Shown here: piece by piece, positions 1 through 14,009 of the stretch | How positions within the stretch are numbered: the stretch's first letter is position 1 | Layout: each line of letters opens with the position of its first letter | Source: Petroclostridium sp. X23 | GTDB lineage: Bacteria > Bacillota > Clostridia > SK-Y3 | Assembly (NCBI RefSeq): GCF_030013905.1 | Contig: NZ_CP124862.1 | Span: 62,001-126,000, forward strand | Reading direction: 5' to 3' | DNA length: 64,000 bases | Position numbers and translations under genes: made by a program | The notes under the pieces: generated by a model | What the model was told of the DNA's origin: nothing | The model's input: the letters and a program-made list of their open reading frames with translations, nothing else | Databases searched by the model: none

Positions 1-3000
1 TTCGGACAAGAAAAGGTAATCATGCTGGAAGTGGAAAACGAAAAACGTCGTAAAGGAAATCATGCTACGGCAAATATATACAGAATTACACCTATCAAAA
101 GAAAATTCGACGTTCATTTTAAGGCGGCGGCTCCTCTTACCTATGATGACGGAAATGGAAATAAAATTCCTATTCCCGAGTATACGGCTGCAGAGCTGAA
201 AGGTGCGAATGACAGCGGGATCGTTGCAAAATATGCCGATGAGCAGTTTTCCATCGCTGTAAAAAATACCGCGAAGGCAAGACTAAAAGAGATTAGAATC
301 GTAACCGATGATAATTCAAAGGTTATATATACTGCCAGACCTGGTCAGACTGTTGTAAATATTAAAATAGACAATCTGTTTTTGCAGAAGTATAAAGACG
401 TTATTTCATATAATGATGTATCAGGGGTGACGGGGTCAAAGAAAGGCAGTTTCACTGTACAACCGGTTTTCGAATATATTAATGCGGATGTACGGATATT
501 TAAAGCGCAAGAAGGATATGTTGACAAGTTTAATCCATCTTCCGGTCGTCAATATGTGGATAAAGTTTATCATTTGGGAGATAAGCTGAAGCTTAAATTA
601 ATGCCTTTCTCACCGGAGGATTACAGGGCGGCAAGTGTCAGGTATAAAACAAAGGAAAATAAGAATCAGAACAAAGAGGTCAGCGGCACGTACGATGTGA
701 CATCGGGAGATACCTATATTTATCCGATCAATACTCCTGTTGTGCAATTAACACCGGTCTTCCAGAAAAAAGACAATAAGATTGTGGTACGCATCAATAA
801 AAACGATATCAGCAAATATTTTACTGCGAACAGCGGAGTGTTGAATTATAAGAATAGAACAGATGGCGGAAGTTACTGGCAGTATGTGATTGATACCAAT
901 CCTAAATTTCAGAGCAATTACGTGCTGACAATACAACCTAAGAGCAGTCAATATGTTCCGACCTGGAAAGAAGCAAAAAATGATACTGTGTACAACGGTA
1001 ATATTTTCTATTTTTCTGCAAAGACCCTTACCAGTGAAAATATTATATGGCTGAGTGCGGAGGATGCCACAAAAGTTAAAGCAGGCTATTTTTCTTTGAA
1101 CGGCATAGCCTATCATAATAATACTTCCATTAGAAACAAATATGGGGCGCAACCCTATCTTCCGGCCGAAGGGGCGGCGATTGCAAGCTGTGGAAATATG
1201 GCACTGGTCGGTGCCGACGGGAAGTTTGAACTCTCTCCATTTCGCGGCGTCTATGGCGGGACGGTAAGATACCTTGTTGCGAGTGATGGCAGAGAGGGAC
1301 TGAGAGAGTACACGTTGCCAACAAGAGAAGGGACAAAAAAGGAATTTACCACCACCATCTTTGACCCGGAGACAAATCAAACTAAGACACAGAAAGTACA
1401 AGCTGAAACAGTAAATCTTTCAGAGGTGGTTTTACCTAGTGATGGTACGGATATCCCGGAATTTACATCGGTTAGCGTATATTCGGGAAATGTACCTATA
1501 GCAGATTACGATAATGCGGTTACCATTAATGAAAAAACAGTAAATTATGTAGTAGATATAGATGCAAAAGGAAAAGAAATTGCCGGCGTAGACTTTATCG
1601 TACTGGATAAGGATAATAAGAAGAAGTTCACAAAGCAGGGAGTACGTCTCTATTCGGGTACAAACAGGTTCGGTTGTATGTCCATGCTGACAACGGCGGG
1701 CGATGAAGGCTATGCCCCGGGAGATAAGCTGTTCGTGCAGATGGAGATTAATACACCTCCGGTCTCAGCAGCAGAAGGTGCCGGGCAGTTTACCACAACA
1801 AAGCTTATGGCAAAGGATACGGGACTTGTGTTTGTGTCCGATACATATAAAGAGCCGGTTACGCAGAACTTTACAGTACCGACAAATGCTTCATTTATTG
1901 ATCTGCCGCTCATCGGAAGCTTCAACGCCGCATTTGCATTTAGTAATGTAATGTTTAGCATTACACAAAAGCCGAATAATTTAATCGAAATGAGATTTGG
2001 TTATGCGCCTATCAATATGAGTATGTCCACTGATAATTTTAAGCAATATAACGCGATGGATTTAATTGATGGAGTTAAAGAGGCGTTTGGAGACGGATTT
2101 TCGGATGCATCGGCCTATAAAGGTGCGGTGGCAGCGATGGGAGCACCTCAATTCAAGGTGAGTCCTGTAGTCGGACTTTCGCTTACATTTGGCATCCGGG
2201 ATAATGGTGATTTTGAATTAATGGGCGGTGGGGTCTTCCTGGGAGTCACAGCCGCATTTAAAGTGACTTGGTATACATTGCTGCCGGTAGTTTATATTCC
2301 ATGCTACGTAGGTGTTGCAGGCAATATATCGGCGCTGTTGGAAGGAGGATTTATCGCAGATCCTACCGGTCCGCTGGTTACGGTAGGGGGATTAAATAAT
2401 CAGTCCTATGAGTTAGATAAGAGTATGAAGTTTGATGCTTCACTCCAAGCTTTGGGAAGCCTCCAGATATTTGCTGGTGTAGGGTTGGCCGGAACGATCG
2501 GGGTGCGCGGAGGTGGTCAGATGGATGCAGCCTATATCTGGTATCCGACAGTGACAAAATTCTACCCGAATTACCATACACATGGTTTGAGGCTTACTTT
2601 TTCTCTTAGATTGTGGCTGGATGCGTATTTGGTAAGTATTCCTATTCCTATTTATACCTTTGATGATTTGAATTTCGGGTACTATGAAGATCTTGCTAAT
2701 GCAAAAGAGCCAAAGACGCTAAAGGCACCAAATGCGTTGGCAACACCGGGAGATGAAGACGGCGTACAGTATAAAGACAGGGATTATCTAGATGAAATGT
2801 CCGAATGGCTGCCGCAGAATAATAAGCTTTACAGTATGAGACTATTCGGTGCTGCCGAAGGATTGAAGCAGACAACCCTGATCGAAAACGGCTATGACCG
2901 GCCCGACTCGAAATTAATAGATATTGGTGGCGGTAAAATGCTTCTGGTATTCTTGGCAGATGAAAAAGAAAGAGAAGCAAATCAGAGAACCGCATTGCAA

Positions 3001-6000
3001 TACAGTATTTTTGACGGAAGCAATTGGAGCCAGCCTGTAACCATACAAGATGACGGTACCGCAGACTTTACGCCAAATATAATGGATGCAGGAGAAAATG
3101 TAATCATTACATGGATATCCACACCGCCGGGTGCCGTTACATCGGATGATCCAAAGGAATTTCTGAAGAAAACGGAAATCTACACGGCAATGTTTAATAA
3201 AAACAACGGAACAATTGGCAATATGGTACGATTGACCGAAGATGACTTTTATGATTCCATGCCAAATGCTATTTATGATGAGACTACCGGAGATATTGGG
3301 GTGTACTATGTAAAAAGCAGCGTGAATAATGAAAGTGACTTTGTGACCGCGGTAGATGTAACAGAAAACAATAGTGTCATCGTGTATATGCTGTATGATG
3401 GTGCTCAAGGAAGATGGCTGACGGATTACTATTATGATAACGAATTAAGCGACCCCGCAGATGCGGAAATATTAATAGAGAGGTTTAAAGGGCAAAGGTT
3501 CCTCGGTTCTCCGATTGAGAAGTATGGTATGATGGATCCTATTATTACCGACTTTAATGCAATCAGCTATGACGGAACCGGTGTATATGCGTATACCATC
3601 GATAAAGATAATATCAAGGATACATCCAGTGATCGGGAGTTATTCTTCCAGGTATATGACTTCGATACCCATAAAACTTACTGGCCTGTCGGCATTACAG
3701 ATAATGTTAAGAACGATGCGATTCCGAAACTCATTAGAAAAGGAAATGAAACCTATTTGTTCTGGCTGCAGGGAGATACGGCATTAAGATATGTTAATAT
3801 TACGGCACTGCTTGAAGAAGGTATTAATCCGGACGGCTCGATCAAAGAAGGTTATGATATGAAAATCGGTACGGTAACGCTGTTGTCGGAGTATACGGAT
3901 AACCAGCCTATCTTAAATGGTTACGAAGTGGTTCAAGACCCCAATAATAACATATATGTTGTTTGGGCACAGCCTGTAGTGGACGAAGAGACCGGAAAAG
4001 GCAGCCAGGAGATTTTCGCGGCTGCGATGATTGAAACGAAAACAGCCGAGGGTGAAGAAACGGTTGTTTGGTCACAGGAATGCCAGGTTACCGAATCAGG
4101 GTTGTTTAATGATGAGCTGTCGATAGCTGTGAACCAAAGCGGGAAAGTATATGTTGTTCATAATGAGTTTGACCAGCAATATACCGATAACGCAGATGCT
4201 CCTGTATTGATTGAGGATATGAAGCTAAGGGTAACGGAATTTATGCCGGACAGCAATTTGATATTTGAAAAATTCATCATGTCGGATAAAACACCAAATT
4301 CCGGAGAAATGGTCATGGTAGGAATGGACATAAAGAATGAAGGTCTTCTTCCGGTTGTAAAAGGATATCATGCGGATATCTATGAAGTAAAGAATGGTGT
4401 AAGAGGAAAACTGGTTGCCGTCATTGATAGTGATCAGGCAATTTTGGCCGGGCATGAGGAAAAAGGCATATTTGAATGGACACTGCCCGAGGATATCAAC
4501 AATCTTTCATTGGAAGCAGTGATCACCGATAAAGACACCAATCGGATCACATCGGGAAGCAGTGAAGAAATCCAAATGGTGTCGGAATATGAGATCAAAG
4601 ATATGCAATGCTACCAGGATGAAGAAGGAATGAAGACTTCCTTTAATATCGTAAATACCGGTAATATGGCATCGGTAGAAGATGATATTGTTAGAGTGAA
4701 CTTCAACGGGCCATTTGTTTCATCCGATGCATTAGGTATTGACAACAAAGTCTATTATGAAGCGGAAGTAGGCACGATCTTGCCGGGAGAATCCAAAGCA
4801 TTCGAAGGCAAATTGGATGTGCCGGGTAAAGCGTTTAACCGCTTCGGCTTCTTAAAAACCTATACGGTTGTTACTGATAGTGCAGTTGAACAGGAAAAAG
4901 GAAAAGGAATTTCAACCGATATGTTTACTACCCAGCCTTTGGAAATCTCATTGCAGGGTGCAGCGGAGGATGGATTAACGATAGAAAAAGGGGAAAGTCT
5001 CCGTTTGACTCTGAGTTATGAACCTGCTAGTATTTATCCTGACGCAGACATCGAATACACTGTACAAGATACTTCCGTTATCGCTATTGAAGGAGATGTA
5101 ATAAAGGGTATTCATAATGGACAGACTGTATTGACAGCGTATATTCAGCCCTACGGCACCAAAAAGACTTTCGACGTTAGAGTGAAAGGCGGTTCATCAT
5201 CGGATGATGATGGTGACGATGATGTTGTATCACCAACTGCTCCGGCAAACGATGCAATCGCTATCGATAAGGAATTCGCGGAACAGAATACAACAGAGCA
5301 AGTACTGCGCATATCAGAGACAAATGGGGCACAAGCGTTAGAACTGAGTATAGGGGAAGATGCTATCGGAGATAGTACTGATGCAATTCAAATCAGTACC
5401 CTAAATGCGGATGTTGTACTCTTAAGAGATACTGTAGAGGCCATCAGAAATACAGGAACGGACGCAGTATTGATGATTTCCGAACAAGGGCAGCAAGGAA
5501 TTTCCGTAAAGATTATGGCCGATGATGACGAACAAGTGCCTGTAGAAGGGTATGTACTGATGAATTATGATTTGGATGAAGGCAGCCTTGCTGATCATAT
5601 TATTATTAAGTATAAGGATCAAATTATTACACAAGGGTTTTATGATGAGGATAAAGGTAAACTGTATATACCTCTAATCGGGTCCGGAGAGTATCAGATA
5701 TTGGAAAATCCGAAATCCTTCAGCGATGTTCAAGCCCATTGGGCAAGCAGAAATATAGGCTTTCTTGCCGCCAGATTCATCTTGAACGGGTATGAGGATG
5801 GTAGCTTCAAACCTGAAAAACCGGTAACACGGGCTGAGTTTCTAAAGATTTTACAGGTTAGCGATATCCTCAATACCGAAGCAGAAGGACAAGCACATTT
5901 TTCTGATGTTGATGCAAACAGTTGGTACTACGATTATGTGCGATGGGGTGCAGCGAATAATATTGTAAATGGCTATGAGGATCAAACCTTCGGTCCCGAA

Positions 6001-6273
6001 AAGCCTATTACCCGTGAAGAAATGGCTGTCATGCTCAGTAAGTTTATTGCGCTGTCTCAAAAAGAATTTGAAGAAAGGGATGGAAGTGATTTTGAAGATG
6101 ATAGGCAGATCGCTTCATGGGCAAAAGATGCGGTGGAAATGCTAAGAAGGCAGTCTATCGTAGAAGGTGATGAGGAAAATATGTTTAATCCGGAGGATCA
6201 GCTTACACGCGCACAAGCAGCTAAGCTTATTACTGTGATTTTAAAAAGATATAACGAAATAGCATCTAGGTAA
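1..6273 (+). CDS. Giant SLH-domain surface protein, 5' end outside window
   Basis: The frame is open from base 1 to the stop at 6273 (about 2,090 codons), so the ATG at 22 is probably internal and the N-terminus with its signal peptide lies upstream. The last ~190 residues hold three S-layer homology repeats (roughly residues 1899-1945, 1958-2005 and 2028-2075 counted from base 22; cores NGYEDGSFKPEKPVTRAE, NGYEDQTFGPEKPITREE and FNPEDQLTRAQA). These anchor proteins to secondary cell-wall polymer. Before them lie a Big_2-like Ig domain (about 1650-1725) and an acidic Ser/Asp linker (about 1727-1740). Residues ~930-1400 have short repeated beta-strand units that resemble a BNR/propeller region. 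Very likely a cell-surface protein; ligand unknown. Confidence 0.9.
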   Translation, partial: FGQEKVIMLEVENEKRRKGNHATANIYRITPIKRKFDVHFKAAAPLTYDDGNGNKIPIPEYTAAELKGANDSGIVAKYADEQFSIAVKNTAKARLKEIRIVTDDNSKVIYTARPGQTVVNIKIDNLFLQKYKDVISYNDVSGVTGSKKGSFTVQPVFEYINADVRIFKAQEGYVDKFNPSSGRQYVDKVYHLGDKLKLKLMPFSPEDYRAASVRYKTKENKNQNKEVSGTYDVTSGDTYIYPINTPVVQLTPVFQKKDNKIVVRINKNDISKYFTANSGVLNYKNRTDGGSYWQYVIDTNPKFQSNYVLTIQPKSSQYVPTWKEAKNDTVYNGNIFYFSAKTLTSENIIWLSAEDATKVKAGYFSLNGIAYHNNTSIRNKYGAQPYLPAEGAAIASCGNMALVGADGKFELSPFRGVYGGTVRYLVASDGREGLREYTLPTREGTKKEFTTTIFDPETNQTKTQKVQAETVNLSEVVLPSDGTDIPEFTSVSVYSGNVPIADYDNAVTINEKTVNYVVDIDAKGKEIAGVDFIVLDKDNKKKFTKQGVRLYSGTNRFGCMSMLTTAGDEGYAPGDKLFVQMEINTPPVSAAEGAGQFTTTKLMAKDTGLVFVSDTYKEPVTQNFTVPTNASFIDLPLIGSFNAAFAFSNVMFSITQKPNNLIEMRFGYAPINMSMSTDNFKQYNAMDLIDGVKEAFGDGFSDASAYKGAVAAMGAPQFKVSPVVGLSLTFGIRDNGDFELMGGGVFLGVTAAFKVTWYTLLPVVYIPCYVGVAGNISALLEGGFIADPTGPLVTVGGLNNQSYELDKSMKFDASLQALGSLQIFAGVGLAGTIGVRGGGQMDAAYIWYPTVTKFYPNYHTHGLRLTFSLRLWLDAYLVSIPIPIYTFDDLNFGYYEDLANAKEPKTLKAPNALATPGDEDGVQYKDRDYLDEMSEWLPQNNKLYSMRLFGAAEGLKQTTLIENGYDRPDSKLIDIGGGKMLLVFLADEKEREANQRTALQYSIFDGSNWSQPVTIQDDGTADFTPNIMDAGENVIITWISTPPGAVTSDDPKEFLKKTEIYTAMFNKNNGTIGNMVRLTEDDFYDSMPNAIYDETTGDIGVYYVKSSVNNESDFVTAVDVTENNSVIVYMLYDGAQGRWLTDYYYDNELSDPADAEILIERFKGQRFLGSPIEKYGMMDPIITDFNAISYDGTGVYAYTIDKDNIKDTSSDRELFFQVYDFDTHKTYWPVGITDNVKNDAIPKLIRKGNETYLFWLQGDTALRYVNITALLEEGINPDGSIKEGYDMKIGTVTLLSEYTDNQPILNGYEVVQDPNNNIYVVWAQPVVDEETGKGSQEIFAAAMIETKTAEGEETVVWSQECQVTESGLFNDELSIAVNQSGKVYVVHNEFDQQYTDNADAPVLIEDMKLRVTEFMPDSNLIFEKFIMSDKTPNSGEMVMVGMDIKNEGLLPVVKGYHADIYEVKNGVRGKLVAVIDSDQAILAGHEEKGIFEWTLPEDINNLSLEAVITDKDTNRITSGSSEEIQMVSEYEIKDMQCYQDEEGMKTSFNIVNTGNMASVEDDIVRVNFNGPFVSSDALGIDNKVYYEAEVGTILPGESKAFEGKLDVPGKAFNRFGFLKTYTVVTDSAVEQEKGKGISTDMFTTQPLEISLQGAAEDGLTIEKGESLRLTLSYEPASIYPDADIEYTVQDTSVIAIEGDVIKGIHNGQTVLTAYIQPYGTKKTFDVRVKGGSSSDDDGDDDVVSPTAPANDAIAIDKEFAEQNTTEQVLRISETNGAQALELSIGEDAIGDSTDAIQISTLNADVVLLRDTVEAIRNTGTDAVLMISEQGQQGISVKIMADDDEQVPVEGYVLMNYDLDEGSLADHIIIKYKDQIITQGFYDEDKGKLYIPLIGSGEYQILENPKSFSDVQAHWASRNIGFLAARFILNGYEDGSFKPEKPVTRAEFLKILQVSDILNTEAEGQAHFSDVDANSWYYDYVRWGAANNIVNGYEDQTFGPEKPITREEMAVMLSKFIALSQKEFEERDGSDFEDDRQIASWAKDAVEMLRRQSIVEGDEENMFNPEDQLTRAQAAKLITVILKRYNEIASR

Positions 6274-6334
6274 CTTATGATTAAATGATTTTGCTGACTT
6301 GATACAGAGATATTTAAGTAAGGAGGTGATTAGG

Positions 6335-6505
6335 TTGAGTGATAAAAAAAATGTAAAAAAACAGGAAGCATCTGTTGAAGAAACTACGATGATTGCAGAA
6401 GAAGAGTTAGGAAAGGTTACAGGTGGCGGTGCTTTTGATGATTTTCCCCGAGTGCCGTTCCACGATTATGAAGCGGATGCCAATAAGAATACTGACGGAA
6501 AGTGA
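6335..6505 (+). CDS. Small double-glycine leader peptide (bacteriocin/RiPP-like precursor)
   Basis: This 56-codon gene starts at a TTG placed 5 bp after a near-perfect AAGGAGGTGAT site; an upstream ATG at 6299 has no such site. The first ~31 residues are a charged leader ending in EEELGKVTGG, the classical double-glycine motif cleaved by C39-peptidase ABC exporters or by RiPP proteases. The remaining 25 residues (starting GAFDDFPRVPF) are acidic, contain no Cys and have three Pro/Phe-rich turns. It lies 61 bp after the SLH gene and before a terminator, so it may share that transcript. No exporter or modifying enzyme is visible within the window. Identity as a secreted peptide precursor is inferred from the leader alone. 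Confidence 0.7.
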   Translation: MSDKKNVKKQEASVEETTMIAEEELGKVTGGGAFDDFPRVPFHDYEADANKNTDGK

Positions 6506-6546
6506 TTGTTAGTAATAATAGATAAAGAAAATTTATAAAAATAATG

Positions 6547-6605
6547 AATGGGAATCAAGCTGCTTAGACGTATTTTATCTGTGCTGTTTATTCCCATTTT
6601 TTTGT
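6547..6605 (+). terminator. Rho-independent terminator after the peptide gene
   Basis: The arms AATGGGAAT and ATTCCCATT are separated by a 34-base loop and followed by a run of T. It closes the SLH/peptide unit. Confidence 0.6.
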
Positions 6606-6718
6606 GAAAAATGATACAGGTGTAATATCTGTTATAAATGATAATTTTATGATTAAATTGCACACATTGAAGTAAAATAAACTTAAGATCATAAAAGTAG
6701 ACGGAAAGAAGTGTAAAA

Positions 6719-6916
6719 ATGGATATAACAAAAATTGGTAATGATGGATTGATGTTTTATTATTTTTCAAATAAACGGCAAATGGATCTTTTATACAAAC
6801 AGCAAAAAGAAATAGAAGAAGAAATCAATAAACGTCTGGATCATATGCGGCTAAAGGCTGGAAAGGGTGAAATTATAATTACGGAATATGGTGCAGATTT
6901 CACTACCGAACCATAA
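6719..6916 (+). CDS. Small hypothetical protein, 65 aa
   Basis: ATG start behind GGAAAGAAG. The product is charged and partly helical: residues ~20-48 are rich in Lys/Glu/Gln and could form an amphipathic helix or short coiled coil. No signal peptide or membrane segment. I do not recognise a family. It stands alone between two terminators, which supports a real transcription unit. Confidence 0.55.
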   Translation: MDITKIGNDGLMFYYFSNKRQMDLLYKQQKEIEEEINKRLDHMRLKAGKGEIIITEYGADFTTEP

Positions 6917-6930
6917 ATAAGGTATCAAAG

Positions 6931-6970
6931 AAAAGCGAAGCAATTAGATGATATCTAACACTTCGCTTTT
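6931..6970. terminator. Bidirectional terminator between convergent small genes
   Basis: AAAAGCGAAG pairs with CTTCGCTTTT across a 20-base loop. The A and T runs on either side let it serve both the plus-strand gene ending at 6916 and the minus-strand gene ending at 6978. Confidence 0.7.
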
Positions 6971-6977
6971 ATACTTT

Positions 6978-7217
6978 TTACCACATTGTTCTATTTTGGA
7001 TTTGTAATACTTCTACTTCCTGACTATCATTATTAAGCATATTTGCTACTTTATTTGCTTCCTGCTCGTTGTCAAATGGATATACCTTTGTGAGGGTAGA
7101 TAAGAAGTAATTGCCATCATTTGATTTTGAGACATATCTTTCATGATCAACCTTTGATTTAATAATATATGACATCTGGATATTACTTTGTTTTGGATTA
7201 ATATGAGCGTTAAACAT
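6978..7217 (-). CDS. Small hypothetical protein, 79 aa
   Basis: The gene has a strong AGGAGGACTC ribosome binding site just upstream of its ATG on the minus strand. The protein begins MFNAHINPKQSN and contains a YVSKSNDGNYFLS stretch followed by an alpha/beta tail, which suggests a compact cytoplasmic fold. No transmembrane segment. Family not recognised. Confidence 0.6.
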   Translation of the reverse strand: MFNAHINPKQSNIQMSYIIKSKVDHERYVSKSNDGNYFLSTLTKVYPFDNEQEANKVANMLNNDSQEVEVLQIQNRTMW

Positions 7218-7459
7218 TAAGAGTCCTCCTTTTATGATGGTATATATTTTTTGTTACCATAAAAAAATATATTTAATATTGTATGCCAGTATTATATTAT
7301 CATACATGTTTTTTGTCTACAATTATTCTAATTTTTAGCAACAAATTTTTCTTCTATAACAATCATTCAATGAATAATATATTAGAAGTGATGAAAAAGA
7401 TGTATATAAAAGTGAACATGTTTCTCACATTATCATATGATAATATGGGGGGACTAAGT

Positions 7460-8179
7460 ATGGGATTATGGACACGCAGGGGTTTGGCGTATAGAGTTAA
7501 ATACAGAAAAAGAAAGAATAAAGGATACAATGTATTTTTAATGATTGCTTTAATTATACTGATGATGATTTACTCGCTTTCAGTATTTGATCGAAAGATC
7601 AGGCCAACTGTTGTATCTATCGCGGAGGCAAGAGCAAAATATATCGCTTCAAGAGCAATTAATGAAGCGGTCAACGAAAAGATTGCAGAGGATAATCTGC
7701 GGTATGAGGACCTCATTACTTTTCAAAAGAATAATGAAGGTCAGATCATGGCGCTTCAAGCAAATATTATAAAGATGAACCAATTGAAGACTGCCATTTC
7801 CATGAGCATACAACAGAAAATTGTCAATATAGATTCCACACAGATTAATGTGCCTATAGGAAATGTTATTAACAGTCAAATGCTGGCCGGATGGGGGCCG
7901 AGAATACCGGTTAAATTATTACCTGTAGGAACAGCACAAGCCGATTTTAAGAGCAGCTTTCAAACAGCAGGGATTAATCAGACGAAACACCAGATTTTAC
8001 TTGAAATACATAGTAATGTATCGGTGCTGCTGCCTATGATAAAGAGCAATTCGGAAGTAACGACAGCAATACCGGTAGCAGAAACCATTATCGTAGGTTC
8101 TGTTCCGGATCAATACATCAATGTAGAAGGTGCTACCACCAATCCATCGGATACCATATTGAATATGATGGAAAGATAA
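7460..8179 (+). CDS. yunB: Sporulation protein YunB
   Basis: 239 aa from an ATG preceded by GGGGGG; the frame opens further upstream at 7283 but without a plausible start site. One N-terminal membrane segment (about residues 27-46, FLMIALIILMMIYSL) is preceded by a basic stretch. Then comes the conserved YunB region with EARAKYIASRAINEAV near the membrane and PIGNVINSQMLAGWGP further on. YunB is a forespore-related protein of Bacillota whose mutants sporulate poorly; its exact role is not settled. This marks the organism as a spore former. Confidence 0.85.
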   Translation: MGLWTRRGLAYRVKYRKRKNKGYNVFLMIALIILMMIYSLSVFDRKIRPTVVSIAEARAKYIASRAINEAVNEKIAEDNLRYEDLITFQKNNEGQIMALQANIIKMNQLKTAISMSIQQKIVNIDSTQINVPIGNVINSQMLAGWGPRIPVKLLPVGTAQADFKSSFQTAGINQTKHQILLEIHSNVSVLLPMIKSNSEVTTAIPVAETIIVGSVPDQYINVEGATTNPSDTILNMMER

Positions 8180-8323
8180 CAGTCAGGTTGGATTTAGAAT
8201 GCTAAAGTAATGTCCGGCTTGGCTTTTTTGATGGTACAATTGGACAAGCGGTATATTGTCATTGCTGCTTTAATACTTTATACTATATATAGATTTATCA
8301 TAATACATAAAGGAGAATTTAAT

Positions 8324-9187
8324 ATGCAAAATTTCAGTATAGGGATTGTTCAGGTTCTTATTGCAGCATTTTTATGGAGTACAGGAGGCGTTTTTATCAA
8401 AGCCATTGATGCAGACCCCATATTTATTGCTGCAGCAAGATCGGCGATCGCCGGTTTGATACTACTTCCGTTCATAGATTTTAAAAAACTTAGGTTTTCC
8501 TTTGGCCTTGCAGCGCTGCTTGTAAGTTATGCATATACGCTGTGTTCTTTTGTAATTGCAACAAAGCTTACAGCGTCTGCCAACGCTATTGCGATACAGT
8601 ATACTGCACCGTTATGGCTGTTTATTTTTACTGTTATTATGACAAAAAAGGTGTCACTAGCCAGGATTATACCTATGGCATTTATCGGCGGAGGTATCCT
8701 GTTTTTTTTAATGGAACCGGTGTCAGGAACAAATGCAGCAGGTAACTTAATGGCTCTTTCAAGTGGTATAGGTTTCGCCGCATTGTCTTATTTTATGAGT
8801 AAACCTCAATGTATTGCCGGTGTGGGTCTGATTAGCTTATGTAATCTTACTGCCGCATTGTGTATGGTATTATTTATTCCTTATCCTATTAGTGTTTCGA
8901 GTATAAGTACGGTTGGATGGATGTCCTTAGCCTACCTAGGGATATTTCAAATAGGAATAGCCTATATTTTTTATGGCAAGGCGTTAGAGACCGTAGCACC
9001 GCTTAAAGCAACTATCATAGCATTGATTGAACCTATTTTGAATCCGATATGGGTAGTGATATTTATTCACGAAATACCAACCATATACGCCCTTTTTGGA
9101 GGCGTAAGTATCCTAATAGGTATATTGCTGGATATTAAAGCAAGTAATTCCACGCCTAGAGAGAATGTAAGCGTAAGCAACAGTTGA
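8324..9187 (+). CDS. EamA/DMT-family permease
   Basis: 287 aa from the ATG that follows AAAGGAG at 8309-8315; the open frame runs further upstream without a comparable site. About ten hydrophobic segments form two EamA halves typical of the drug/metabolite transporter superfamily. The N-terminal signature AFLWSTGGVFIKAI is present and the second half ends in GGVSILIGILLDI. Likely a small-metabolite exporter or importer in the cytoplasmic membrane; substrate cannot be told from sequence. Confidence 0.85.
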   Translation: MQNFSIGIVQVLIAAFLWSTGGVFIKAIDADPIFIAAARSAIAGLILLPFIDFKKLRFSFGLAALLVSYAYTLCSFVIATKLTASANAIAIQYTAPLWLFIFTVIMTKKVSLARIIPMAFIGGGILFFLMEPVSGTNAAGNLMALSSGIGFAALSYFMSKPQCIAGVGLISLCNLTAALCMVLFIPYPISVSSISTVGWMSLAYLGIFQIGIAYIFYGKALETVAPLKATIIALIEPILNPIWVVIFIHEIPTIYALFGGVSILIGILLDIKASNSTPRENVSVSNS

Positions 9188-9202
9188 GTTGTAGAAATAA
9201 GA

Positions 9203-9231
9203 AATCATGGTATACTAGTAATGCCATGATT
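9203..9231 (+). terminator. Hairpin between the permease and ligA
   Basis: AATCATGG pairs with CCATGATT followed by ATTTT. The loop contains TATACT, which with TTGTAG 16 bp upstream could also be the ligA promoter, so the hairpin may overlap promoter sequence. Confidence 0.45.
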
Positions 9232-9244
9232 ATTTTGGAGGTAG

Positions 9245-11248
<2,004 letters not shown>

Positions 11249-11318
11249 TTAATCAATGCTGGACAAAGCTTATTTGCAAAAGCGGCTTGTTTGAATCGAA
11301 GTATATAGGATCTATCTT

Positions 11319-11360
11319 AATAACCGGGTATCCGAGTGCTGATGAAACCCGGTTATTTTC
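11319..11360 (+). terminator. ligA terminator
   Basis: AATAACCGGG and CCCGGTTATT form a 10-bp stem with a T-rich 3' flank. Confidence 0.75.
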
Positions 11361-11401
11361 ATTGATTAGTAAAAAAGTAGTCATATCTTGTTGCTTTTTG
11401 T

Positions 11402-11733
11402 TTCAGTAAGTTCTTTCTTAAATCTGTGATTTTCGTTATACATTCATGTAAGTTTAGATTGTAGTAAAAAACTCCAAAAATAAGCTCCTTTTTAACAAGA
11501 ATTTATAATATGAAGCTAAGGATGAGCTTTGTTTATAAGATGGTTTTATCATAAACACAATAAGAGCTTTGGATAGTCAAAAATAATTCGATAATAACGA
11601 ACCAAAAATAAATTAAACAAGAAGGATTTTTGTAATATACGTAGAATAACTATTATATCAAATAAAAACGAAAGGCATTCGGCAATATCGAATCAGTAGC
11701 CATGTCGATTTTAGAAGGGAGAATGTTGATGCA
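11402..11733 (+). repeat. Diverged copy of the IclR leader region
   Basis: This stretch aligns by eye along its length with 37603-37940, the leader of the intact IclR gene. Shared segments include CATGTAAGTTTAGATT, the AAGCTAAGG block, TTTTATCATAAAC, GAATAGTCAAAAA-like sequence, CGAAAGGCATTCGG and GAAGGGAGAA. It contains two operator-like sites, TTCGATAATAACGAA (11587-11601) and TTCGGCAATATCGAA (11678-11692). Together with the following pseudogene it marks a segmental duplication. Confidence 0.75.
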
Positions 11734-11969
11734 ATGATTGAAAAAAGATACTTGTAAGAAAATGGATCATCTCTGATACGTTCTGTTGTCAAAGCTTTAA
11801 GTATTCTAAATCTGCTTGCAATTAATAAACGAAGTATGTCTTTGGCAGAAATATCTAAGAAGATGAACCTGGCTAAAAGTACAAGTACATGGATTGCTTT
11901 CAACTTTGAGGAATTTTAGCATTAGGTTATCGCAGATCAGTATTAGGAGGAGATATCAATGGAAGTTAG
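11734..11969 (+). pseudogene. Decayed IclR-family regulator with internal deletion
   Basis: The frame begins MIEKRYL, like the intact regulator at 37941, but codon 8 is TAA instead of TCA. An insertion in the recognition-helix region (KSTSTW in place of KSTVHG) shifts the frame. After about 180 bp the sequence jumps directly to the C-terminal codons ALGYRRS-LGGDINGS and the stop at 11967-11969. The wing, hinge and effector-binding domain are therefore missing. The nucleotide match to the intact copy remains high, so the loss is fairly recent. Its stop overlaps the start of the next gene, as in the intact copy. Confidence 0.85.
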
Positions 11970-12753
11970 AGAATTTCTATTTACAAACATAGAAAATAAA
12001 AGAAGAGAGTTTACTATAATATCTAAAGAAAAAGGAGTTTTGTCTGGGACATTACGTTTAAAACAATTAGCGGATGAATTGAAGATAGAGGTCATAAACA
12101 TAGCCGATGAAGCAAAAAGATTAAACCCGGGAGACTGTGTTCTAGAAGCGATTGGAAATCCTGAGCAAATTATTAGAGCAGAAGAGATGCTTTTAGGTGT
12201 CATTGCGAAACCTTCAGGAATAGCAACCGCTGCAGCAGATTTAGTTCAAGTGGCTGGAGATAAGACTAAGGTGGTTTGCGGTGGATGGAAAAAAGTGGCT
12301 CCGGAGAGTAGAGCAGACTTGCGACAATCCATTATTGCCGGTGGCGCAGGAATGCGTATTACAGATCAGCCATTTGTTTATTTGGATAAAAACTATGTGC
12401 GTCTTCTTGATGGTGTTGGGAATGCTGTAGCACGGGCAAAGGCTTATAAGACCGATCGTATAGTAGTTGTACAGATCCGAGGCGAAACGCGGCCCATATT
12501 TGATGAAGCGACTGAAGCAGTAGAAGCTGGAGCTGGAATAGTCATGGTTGATACCGGAAAAATGGAAGACCTGGAAAAAGTAATTGAGACGGCAATTAGA
12601 CATGGATGGCGAAATGATTTGCGTATAGCTTTTGCCGGCGGTGTTAATCAAGCAAGTTTAAAGGCAGTAGCTGATTTAGGGGGAGATATTGTGTGTGTAG
12701 GAAGGGCAATCATTGATGCACCTTTATTGGACTTGAGTCTTGATATTAGGTAG
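11959..12753 (+). CDS. NadC/ModD-like (QPRTase-fold) protein, divergent subfamily
   Basis: 264 aa with the quinolinate phosphoribosyltransferase fold: N-terminal sandwich, SGIATAA helix and barrel segments GAGIVMVDTGKMEDLEKV and GGDIVCVGRAIIDAPLLDLS. The family normally converts quinolinate and PRPP to nicotinate mononucleotide, but the NadC signature RKTxPG is replaced here by GGWKKVAPE. The GGGxNHR motif is replaced by AGGAGMRIT, so known substrate-binding Arg and His residues are missing. A paralogue at 26123 has the same changes. It starts inside the C-terminus of the IclR pseudogene (GGAGG at 11946-11950). Function unknown; likely a related phosphoribosyl- or acid-binding role. Confidence 0.75.
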   Translation: MEVREFLFTNIENKRREFTIISKEKGVLSGTLRLKQLADELKIEVINIADEAKRLNPGDCVLEAIGNPEQIIRAEEMLLGVIAKPSGIATAAADLVQVAGDKTKVVCGGWKKVAPESRADLRQSIIAGGAGMRITDQPFVYLDKNYVRLLDGVGNAVARAKAYKTDRIVVVQIRGETRPIFDEATEAVEAGAGIVMVDTGKMEDLEKVIETAIRHGWRNDLRIAFAGGVNQASLKAVADLGGDIVCVGRAIIDAPLLDLSLDIR

Positions 12754-12778
12754 TAGAAGTTTGAATGGAAGATGATAT

Positions 12779-12880
12779 TTGGAACGTCATGTTTTTATGG
12801 ATTTATCCAATGTTATTACATCATTAGGCCCTCATGAAGAAATAAAACTAGAATGTGATGGGATGATTATTGGTATGTAG
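12779..12880 (+). CDS. Short ORF or gene remnant, 33 codons
   Basis: A TTG-started frame encodes a peptide with VFMDLSNVITSLGPHEEIK, directly after the QPRTase-like gene. There is only a weak GGAAG site. It could be the C-terminal stub of a deleted gene; I do not recognise it. Confidence 0.25.
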   Translation: MERHVFMDLSNVITSLGPHEEIKLECDGMIIGM

Positions 12881-12899
12881 GAAGGGAGGAACAGAGCAG

Positions 12900-13751
12900 T
12901 TGGAAGAATGTAAAATTAAAGTATTAAATGAGGCTATTGTTGCAGGAAAATATATTTATGAAGCTTTTGGGGGGAATAGTAGTATTACAGTCGTAGATGA
13001 AAATTTAAGAATTTATCTACATTTAAATGGCAATAAAATAAGCTTTGATTTAAAAAAAGGTGATCATTTGCCTAAGGGAACAATTATTGATATTGCTATG
13101 AATCAAAAAAAAAGAAACTTTTTGTATGTTAGTAAGGAAAAATCAAAATTCGGATATTCATATACGGGGATTGGTATTCCTGTAGCAGATGAGAATGGCC
13201 GAGTGGTTGGAGGTATAACAATTACATCTTCAGTAGAACGGCTTGAGTTATTAAATAAAATAGGGTCTGTACTTTCCGATATATCGGGTCAAACGTTAGA
13301 AGGTATCGATACAATGTCTGATAACGCAGTTAAACTTTCACAAACCATAGGGAAGCTTTTAGAAATTACGGATGAAACGAAAGAAGGCTTAGCCGTAATA
13401 GAAAAAGTAATAAAAATGATAAAGGGAATAGTAGATCAAACAAAACTATTGGCTTTAAATGCAACTATTGAAGCTGCACGTGCAGGAGATGCAGGGAGAG
13501 GCTTTGCAGTAGTTGCAAAAGAAATAAGAAATTTGGCAGTAACTTCTCAAGATGGTGTAGATGAGACATCTAAGAAATTACTTCAGATTTCAAAAGCGGT
13601 AGAAATTATTGCGGAATATATTTCTGATATTAATAATGCATCAGAATATCAAGCTGCTATGACAGAAGAAATCAATTCATCTTATACTGAAATTGATGAG
13701 TATATCAAAAAAATCTATTTACTTTTGCATGAGGCCAAAGAAGAATTGTAA
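12900..13751 (+). CDS. Soluble methyl-accepting chemotaxis-type receptor
   Basis: 283 aa from a TTG that follows AAGGGAGG; no membrane segment, so cytoplasmic. Residues ~1-115 form a small sensor domain (GTIIDIAMNQKK, GIGIPVADENGRVVGGITI) with PAS/GAF-like alternation. Residues ~130-280 are helical, with the conserved MCP hairpin tip LLALNATIEAARAGDAGRGF and VVAKEIRNLA. The signalling arm is short and methylation sites are few. It presumably tells the chemotaxis CheA/CheW array about an internal metabolite. Its place between the QPRTase-like gene and the TRAP transporter suggests it senses the island's substrate. Confidence 0.8.
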   Translation: MEECKIKVLNEAIVAGKYIYEAFGGNSSITVVDENLRIYLHLNGNKISFDLKKGDHLPKGTIIDIAMNQKKRNFLYVSKEKSKFGYSYTGIGIPVADENGRVVGGITITSSVERLELLNKIGSVLSDISGQTLEGIDTMSDNAVKLSQTIGKLLEITDETKEGLAVIEKVIKMIKGIVDQTKLLALNATIEAARAGDAGRGFAVVAKEIRNLAVTSQDGVDETSKKLLQISKAVEIIAEYISDINNASEYQAAMTEEINSSYTEIDEYIKKIYLLLHEAKEEL

Positions 13752-13952
13752 GGATGTATTATGCTACGGTAGCAGAATGAATAGCACTAATGCTGCTTGG
13801 GGATATTGAAATGTTAATGAGTGAGGTTGCATCATAACCATTGTCATGAGGTTGTATTATACAATATTTTGATTTGGGACATAATCACATGTGCTACAAT
13901 GAGATATTATGGTAAATGGATTAGAAACTCTATGCAAATTCATTAAAAAATA

Positions 13953-13981
13953 TTGCAATACAAATAAAAAAGTAGTATACT
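13953..13981 (+). promoter_or_regulatory. Predicted sigma-A promoter of the TRAP operon
   Basis: TTGCAA, a 17-bp spacer, then TATACT. It lies about 30 bp upstream of the operator-like sites, an arrangement that would suit repression. Confidence 0.5.
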
Positions 13982-14009
13982 TATACTATAATAAAAATGC
14001 AATTGTTTG

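Follow-up and report, generated by a model that had tools for sequence, protein, structure and literature searches.

The window analyzed here is a stretch of 64,000 nucleotides, bases 62001-126000 of the 5,512,510-base, single-contig genome of Petroclostridium sp. X23. In its first 7 kb, a short gene for a double-glycine (GG) leader peptide lies behind the gene of a giant SLH surface protein. The features, all on the forward strand, are as follows.

1..6273 (+): giant SLH surface-protein gene, 3' part; the whole product has 2674 aa
5716..6222 (+): three SLH domains, from domain matches at 5716-5841, 5899-6027 and 6091-6222
6320..6330 (+): Shine-Dalgarno sequence AAGGAGGTGAT, with a 4 nt gap to the TTG start
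6335..6505 (+): GG-leader peptide gene, 56 aa, from the ORF and its homologues
6335..6427 (+): leader, residues 1-31, with the end EEELGKVTGG (I-12, L-7, V-4, G-2, G-1)
6428..6502 (+): predicted mature core of 25 aa, GAFDDFPRVPFHDYEADANKNTDGK
6547..6603 (+): terminator-like hairpin with a long loop and T-run, 3' of the peptide gene

The peptide ORF at 6335-6505 is a real gene. A sequence-only reading of the window had described a double-glycine leader gene with a TTG start, a strong ribosome binding site and the EEELGKVTGG end, and its coordinates and these features were found as described. The translation is MSDKKNVKKQEASVEETTMIAEEELGKVTGG followed by GAFDDFPRVPFHDYEADANKNTDGK, the junction being the predicted GG cleavage site. 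A 68-aa frame from 6299 was disfavored; the start at 6335 is preferred because the ribosome site of a paralogue has the same build, with AAGGGGGTGAT 4 nt before an ATG. Folding of the 100 nt 3' of the stop gave a hairpin of -20.5 kcal/mol (z -2.7), which was absent from a simple scan restricted to loops of 3-8 because its loop is too long. Hairpins were found 3' of all five peptide genes of the family described below (z -2.7 to -10.0). Two small ORFs 3' of the peptide gene, at 6719-6916 (+) and 6978-7217 (-), matched no Pfam or NCBIfam family above cut-off.

The first 1752 nt of the giant gene lie 5' of the window, its start being at L005:10250. The 2674-aa product has Calx-beta, a long conserved middle and three C-terminal SLH domains, the last of which mark it as an SLH surface protein, and its N-terminus was judged by eye to be of the Sec type. 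The closest PDB relatives of a profile of the giants are chains of the S-layer protein Sap. The peptide ORF begins 61 nt past the stop of the giant gene, and the two genes are probably carried on one transcript. An in-frame extension of the giant, with 'VEGG' serving as GG leader, was rejected: the paralogue has no such stretch, and the later ATG has a ribosome site before it. Genes of an oligopeptide-type ABC importer (L005 4817-9876) lie immediately 5' of the window giant. This Opp-type transporter was considered as a partner and set aside, as it is absent beside the other copies.

The genome holds one further copy of the peptide gene, at 382570-382728 on the minus strand (E 1.4e-5, 37% identical to the window peptide), which encodes MPENKKIEKQEEPEKQFEQFSDEGLVQVSGG before and KSAFTNVPRVPLKDYDDEVKKNI after the GG site. 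This paralogue lies 56 nt behind the gene of an SLH giant of 2695 aa, which shares 69.4% identity with the window giant over 2702 columns. A two-row profile of the peptides was run against 391 genomes of the class; four genomes matched at E<=0.01, of which three were true. Besides X23, these are G579, with one gene (E 3.4e-8), and G724, with a pair of genes (E 4.0e-10 and 4.6e-10); G579 and G724 belong to two families of the class other than that of X23. The remaining match (G607, E 0.004) was rejected, as it overlaps a frame of 156 aa that has no GG motif. The G724 peptides are MNNEKENKKIQEVDLEDLEKVTGG followed by GAFDNVPRVPEHKIDDNLKSKI and MNNEKENKKIQEVDLEDLEKVTGG followed by GAFDNVPRVPEHNIDDKLKGKI, and that of G579 is MSQEKNEKNIKNPEKLQEIDFDDLEKVTGG followed by SAFDTIPRVPEKPIDDNLKSKI. 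These three genes lie 25-26 nt behind genes for giants of 2690 aa, at least 2420 aa (close to a contig end) and 2764 aa, which are about 29-33% identical to the window giant over 1600-2500 residues. SLH domains are common to the relatives' giants, and Calx-beta was present in the two that were scanned.

The position behind a giant SLH gene, noted earlier for the window gene alone, thus extends to all five known family members, with gaps of 61, 56, 25, 25 and 26 nt. The sequence-only reading had also held that homologues lacking the GG motif would speak against it; all five keep the motif. X23 has an SLH-rich surface, with 82 SLH matches that were grouped into 34 genes. A GG ORF was found within 900 nt 3' of three of the 34, namely those of the window, the paralogue and locus L004; two further matches of the GG regular expression behind X23 SLH genes were set aside by eye as chance. 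Of 17 GG leaders with E<0.1 in the genome, three follow SLH genes (p about 2e-4, or 0.006 with the duplicated pair counted once, both values assuming 5000 genes). In the case of a third, more distant X23 giant of 2871 aa, the 900 nt downstream contain no GG ORF.

Peptides and giants do not diverge in step. The two X23 giants are 69% identical, whereas their cores share 10 of 22 residues. The two G724 peptides are 93% identical and their giants 43%/30% identical outside a homogenized 3' end. The last 880 nt of these copies (L113 and L114), comprising the giant end, the gap and the peptide, are 97.4% identical, from which it appears that the cassette is recently homogenized. Because the two partners do not diverge in step, the case for a tight ligand-receptor pairing is weakened.

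The family cores have 22-25 residues, are free of Cys and follow the pattern [GS]AFxx[VIF]PRVP..., in which AF and PRVP are invariant in five of five. Of the five, the window copy has diverged furthest; it lacks the C-terminal LKxKI, and its core is identical to the other cores at 7-10 of 22 positions. One G724 peptide (G724a) and that of G579 share 17 of 22 core residues vs. 7 of 14 in the N-terminal leader. An acidic, Cys-free core of 25 residues had been singled out from the sequence; the description holds for the window peptide (net charge -3, no Cys), but acidity was rejected as a defining family trait since the relatives' cores are neutral or nearly so (0, 0, 0 and +1). A conserved core is easier to reconcile with a fixed partner than with an antibiotic.

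In the leaders of all six SLH-linked peptides, those of the family and that of L004, position -4 is V, position -7 is L, position -12 is I, F, L or V, and the end is GG. In a co-crystal of the LahT C39 domain, the equivalent leader side chains sit in a hydrophobic groove (PMC6363468). A profile was built from 13 leader ends of Cys-rich and similar X23 GG peptides, none of them SLH-linked, and applied to 3400 ORFs, drawn from the window and from 29 loci without training peptides. The top six ORFs were exactly the six SLH-linked peptides, that of the window being second, and rank 7 was a large unrelated frame. The E-values were 4e-6 (L004), 0.035 (window) and 0.32 to 2.9 (others); taken singly they are weak, and the ranking is the result. 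Bacteriocin-like models matched the leader weakly, below their cut-offs. When four family members were scanned, TIGR03793 and TIGR03798 (nitrile-hydratase/Nif11 leader) gave no match at E<=10.

The processing gene had been expected outside the window. No C39 gene lies inside the 64 kb, and the only two C39 matches of X23 are at 4.85 and 5.09 Mb, distant from the window gene. The absence of C39 machinery from the genome would have spoken against a double-glycine peptide, and two C39 exporters were found. Their C39-ABC1 proteins scored 992 and 944 bits against TIGR03796 (cut-off 853), and the ABC2 proteins 780 and 757 bits (cut-off 709). A C39 transporter just upstream, where it had been suggested to look for one, is not present in X23, where the exporters are unlinked to both giant-peptide pairs, but is encoded directly 5' of the giant in the two relatives. 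The gene order in one copy each of G724 (L116 then L113) and G579 (L117 then L115) is lipoprotein, HlyD, C39-ABC1, ABC2, giant SLH protein, GG peptide. These exporters score best to the NHLM models yet fall under the curated cut-offs, with 763 and 748 bits for TIGR03796 (cut-off 853), 592 and 543 for TIGR03797 (709) and 136 and 121 for TIGR03794 (156). All four exporters have the catalytic C39 residues Cys, His and Asp. The predicted export of the peptide is well supported at the sequence level.

Other GG peptides lie near the two X23 exporters. At L004, an operon-like row (2072-13999) encodes a TPR protein, an 888-aa SLH protein, a 54-aa Cys-free GG peptide 22 nt past its SLH gene, an RCC1-repeat secreted protein, C39-ABC1 and ABC2; the hairpin 3' of this peptide falls short of significance (z -1.7). 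Near L004, the gene of a radical-SAM-like protein adjoins an aldehyde ferredoxin oxidoreductase-like gene, both named by eye. The L003 exporter adjoins four Cys-rich GG peptides, and no lanthipeptide synthetase was recognized beside it; one of the four was scanned and gave a match to the Nif11 leader model. With these four included, at least a dozen GG peptides other than the SLH-linked ones, mostly longer and Cys-rich, are scattered in X23 (L003 15143-18598; L032, L033, L061, L065, L066, L093, L101, L102, L103). A Peripla_BP_6 lipoprotein, a possible peptide sensor or chaperone, is encoded next to the NHLM-type exporter at L116 5906-7048, L117 10697-11872 and L003 13992-15131.

The family is small and associated with giant SLH proteins and with C39 exporters of NHLM-like type; its breadth so far is three of the 391 class genomes, X23 included. 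When the paralogue protein was searched against 99 relatives, five genomes matched. Only X23, where the two known copies were hit, gave convincing matches; the remaining four genomes had best E-values of 0.05-0.09. The two-row profile, a weak one, matched 10 of 398 phylum genomes with only the X23 copies convincing, the other loci being other genes or unrelated GG peptides. A scan of genome contigs with N-terminal stretches confirmed none of 593. A DNA pattern of the core, which fits both X23 copies, demands Asp-Tyr and is blind to the IDD-type relatives, gave no match in genome contigs, viral contigs or plasmids and is uninformative on the breadth of the family. A broadened pattern gave 12 matches in 291 class genomes, two of them X23, vs. 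13 for the reversed control, and missed G579, which is among the 291 yet whose codons break it. Other plasmid and phage matches had E 0.4 or worse, and none of 63 viral stretches checked was confirmed. Phage matches H12 and H14 were rejected as long frames, presumably purM, in which a GGFYENIPR-type stretch mimics the motif. A profile of the giants, run on 398 phylum and 7 order genomes, gave only weak matches outside X23. Those in G113 and G230 end inside their loci with no GG ORF behind, and that in G040 spans its entire locus, the downstream end falling outside the sequence covered.

From the gene, its leader, the pairing with the giant, the exporter linkage and the conserved core, all read from the DNA, it is reasonably probable that the gene encodes a secreted peptide precursor, forming with the giant SLH protein a conserved module that has a role at the surface and is not a toxin. 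The giant would leave the cell via Sec, and its SLH domains would then anchor it to the cell wall. The precursor, with its EL..V.GG leader, would be recognized by the C39 domain of an NHLM-type exporter and cut after Gly-Gly, and the core of 22-25 residues would be pumped out, probably unmodified. The exporter encoded directly 5' of the giant would serve in the two relatives, and one or both distant copies in trans in X23. Outside the cell, the core would most likely act at the surface with the giant, as a ligand or as an assembly or adhesion factor. Action at the cell surface with the SLH protein had been suggested from the window alone, and the giant SLH neighbor in all five members strengthens the suggestion; a partnership of the two products is inferred because their genes are linked. 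A more specific form is possible and is offered tentatively, namely that a C39 exporter is devoted to secreting a conserved peptide of roughly 22 residues, and that this peptide docks on its same-operon, 300-kDa, S-layer-anchored partner and controls the assembly, adhesion or display of that protein.

The possibility was considered that the exported core is a diffusible signal, or pheromone, acting on a sensor, perhaps the Peripla_BP_6 lipoprotein, with the SLH co-location reflecting shared regulation. GG peptides are frequently signals, according to a review (PMC7595303), and the streptococcal CSP, BriC and VP1 peptides treated there likewise have short GG-leader precursors that leave the cell through C39 ABC transporters. 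The core is conserved, soluble and unmodified-looking, and the lipoprotein gene adjoins the exporter in G724, G579 and L003. However, the lipoprotein also stands beside the Cys-rich GG peptides at L003 and is therefore not specific, and the constant neighbor is the giant SLH gene. Moreover, inspection by eye showed no sensor kinase or transcription regulator by the five genes, and the streptococcal peptides differ in this respect, no two-component system or Rgg regulator being seen beside the window-family genes. A signal is accordingly judged a doubtful reading.

An unlikely reading is that the peptide is the precursor of a RiPP natural product, which an enzyme encoded at another site would modify before export by the NHLM exporter. 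NHLM-class exporters normally serve modified NHLP/Nif11 precursors, and X23 holds many Cys-rich Nif11-like GG peptides. The NHLM/NHLP systems (PMC2887384; TIGR03794/03796/03797) resemble the present case in part: the X23 C39-ABC1 and ABC2 proteins exceed the NHLM cut-offs, the relatives' exporters score best to the same models, and a Gly-Gly site ends the leader. In contrast to NHLM/NHLP precursors, those of the window family lack a nitrile-hydratase or Nif11 leader, the neighbors examined showed no recognizable modification enzyme, the core is Cys-free and conserved, unlike NHLP cores, and the constant neighbor is a giant SLH gene. Neither Nif11 nor NHLP models matched at E<=10, and Pfam and NCBIfam scans of selected neighbors recognized no lanthipeptide enzyme (LanM), YcaO or similar. 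A radical-SAM protein of G724 (L116 3017-4975; Radical_SAM_N/DUF3362) lies between FtsK-like and tetrahydrofolate dehydrogenase genes and looks housekeeping. The comparison with LahT/PCAT (PMC6363468) has the same two sides: V-4, L-7 and a hydrophobic -12 precede Gly-Gly, and the exporters have the C39 Cys, His and Asp, whereas the LahA peptides are Nif11-type lanthipeptide precursors and the leader here is short and non-Nif11.

Class II bacteriocins are characterized by a cationic, amphiphilic core and an accompanying immunity gene, neither of which was seen in the family. An unmodified bacteriocin of this type would agree with the length, the GG leader and the weak, sub-cut-off leader matches to bacteriocin-like models, but the core is hydrophilic with a net charge of 0 to -3 (one +1), it is conserved across families, the gene is always tied to SLH, and no immunity-like gene was seen by eye beside the family peptides, which makes this reading quite improbable. 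The earlier proposal of a bacteriocin or RiPP is thus weakly supported: the candidate GG peptide stands, but its core is conserved and mostly neutral to acidic, with no modification or immunity gene recognized nearby. A chance open frame, for which the short ORF, the TTG start and its absence from most genomes sampled might be cited, is dismissed in view of homologues in other families (E down to 4e-10) with the same neighbor, a strong ribosome site and a terminator.

We know of no SLH-protein tie for the EbfG1-4/PteB system of Synechococcus elongatus, which offers an analogy to the favored module of peptide and surface protein. Its C39-exported GG-motif small proteins have a surface or biofilm rather than antibiotic role (PMC4997328), but the sequences are different ones and the analogy is functional only. 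Export of GG peptides by NHLM-type machinery is an already known kind of system, and the window peptide is a new form of it. The pairing of a giant SLH protein with a GG peptide was not met in a limited literature search, which is no proof that it is unpublished.

The product is probably a conserved, little-known surface peptide and not an antibiotic. NHLM-type exporters get annotated as bacteriocin exporters; here such an exporter sits by a giant surface protein and a peptide with a conserved core, in which nothing points to antibiotic or RiPP maturation. If the favored reading is confirmed, automated 'bacteriocin' labels on such loci would be misleading, and C39 export would serve cell-surface building or signaling in these probably spore-forming Firmicutes. 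If docking on the giant proves true, the peptide would serve as cofactor of a Gram-positive surface protein, and NHLM-type export would have a use outside natural-product biosynthesis. As to the organism itself, a Spore_YunB protein is encoded in the window and points to a spore-forming Firmicute.
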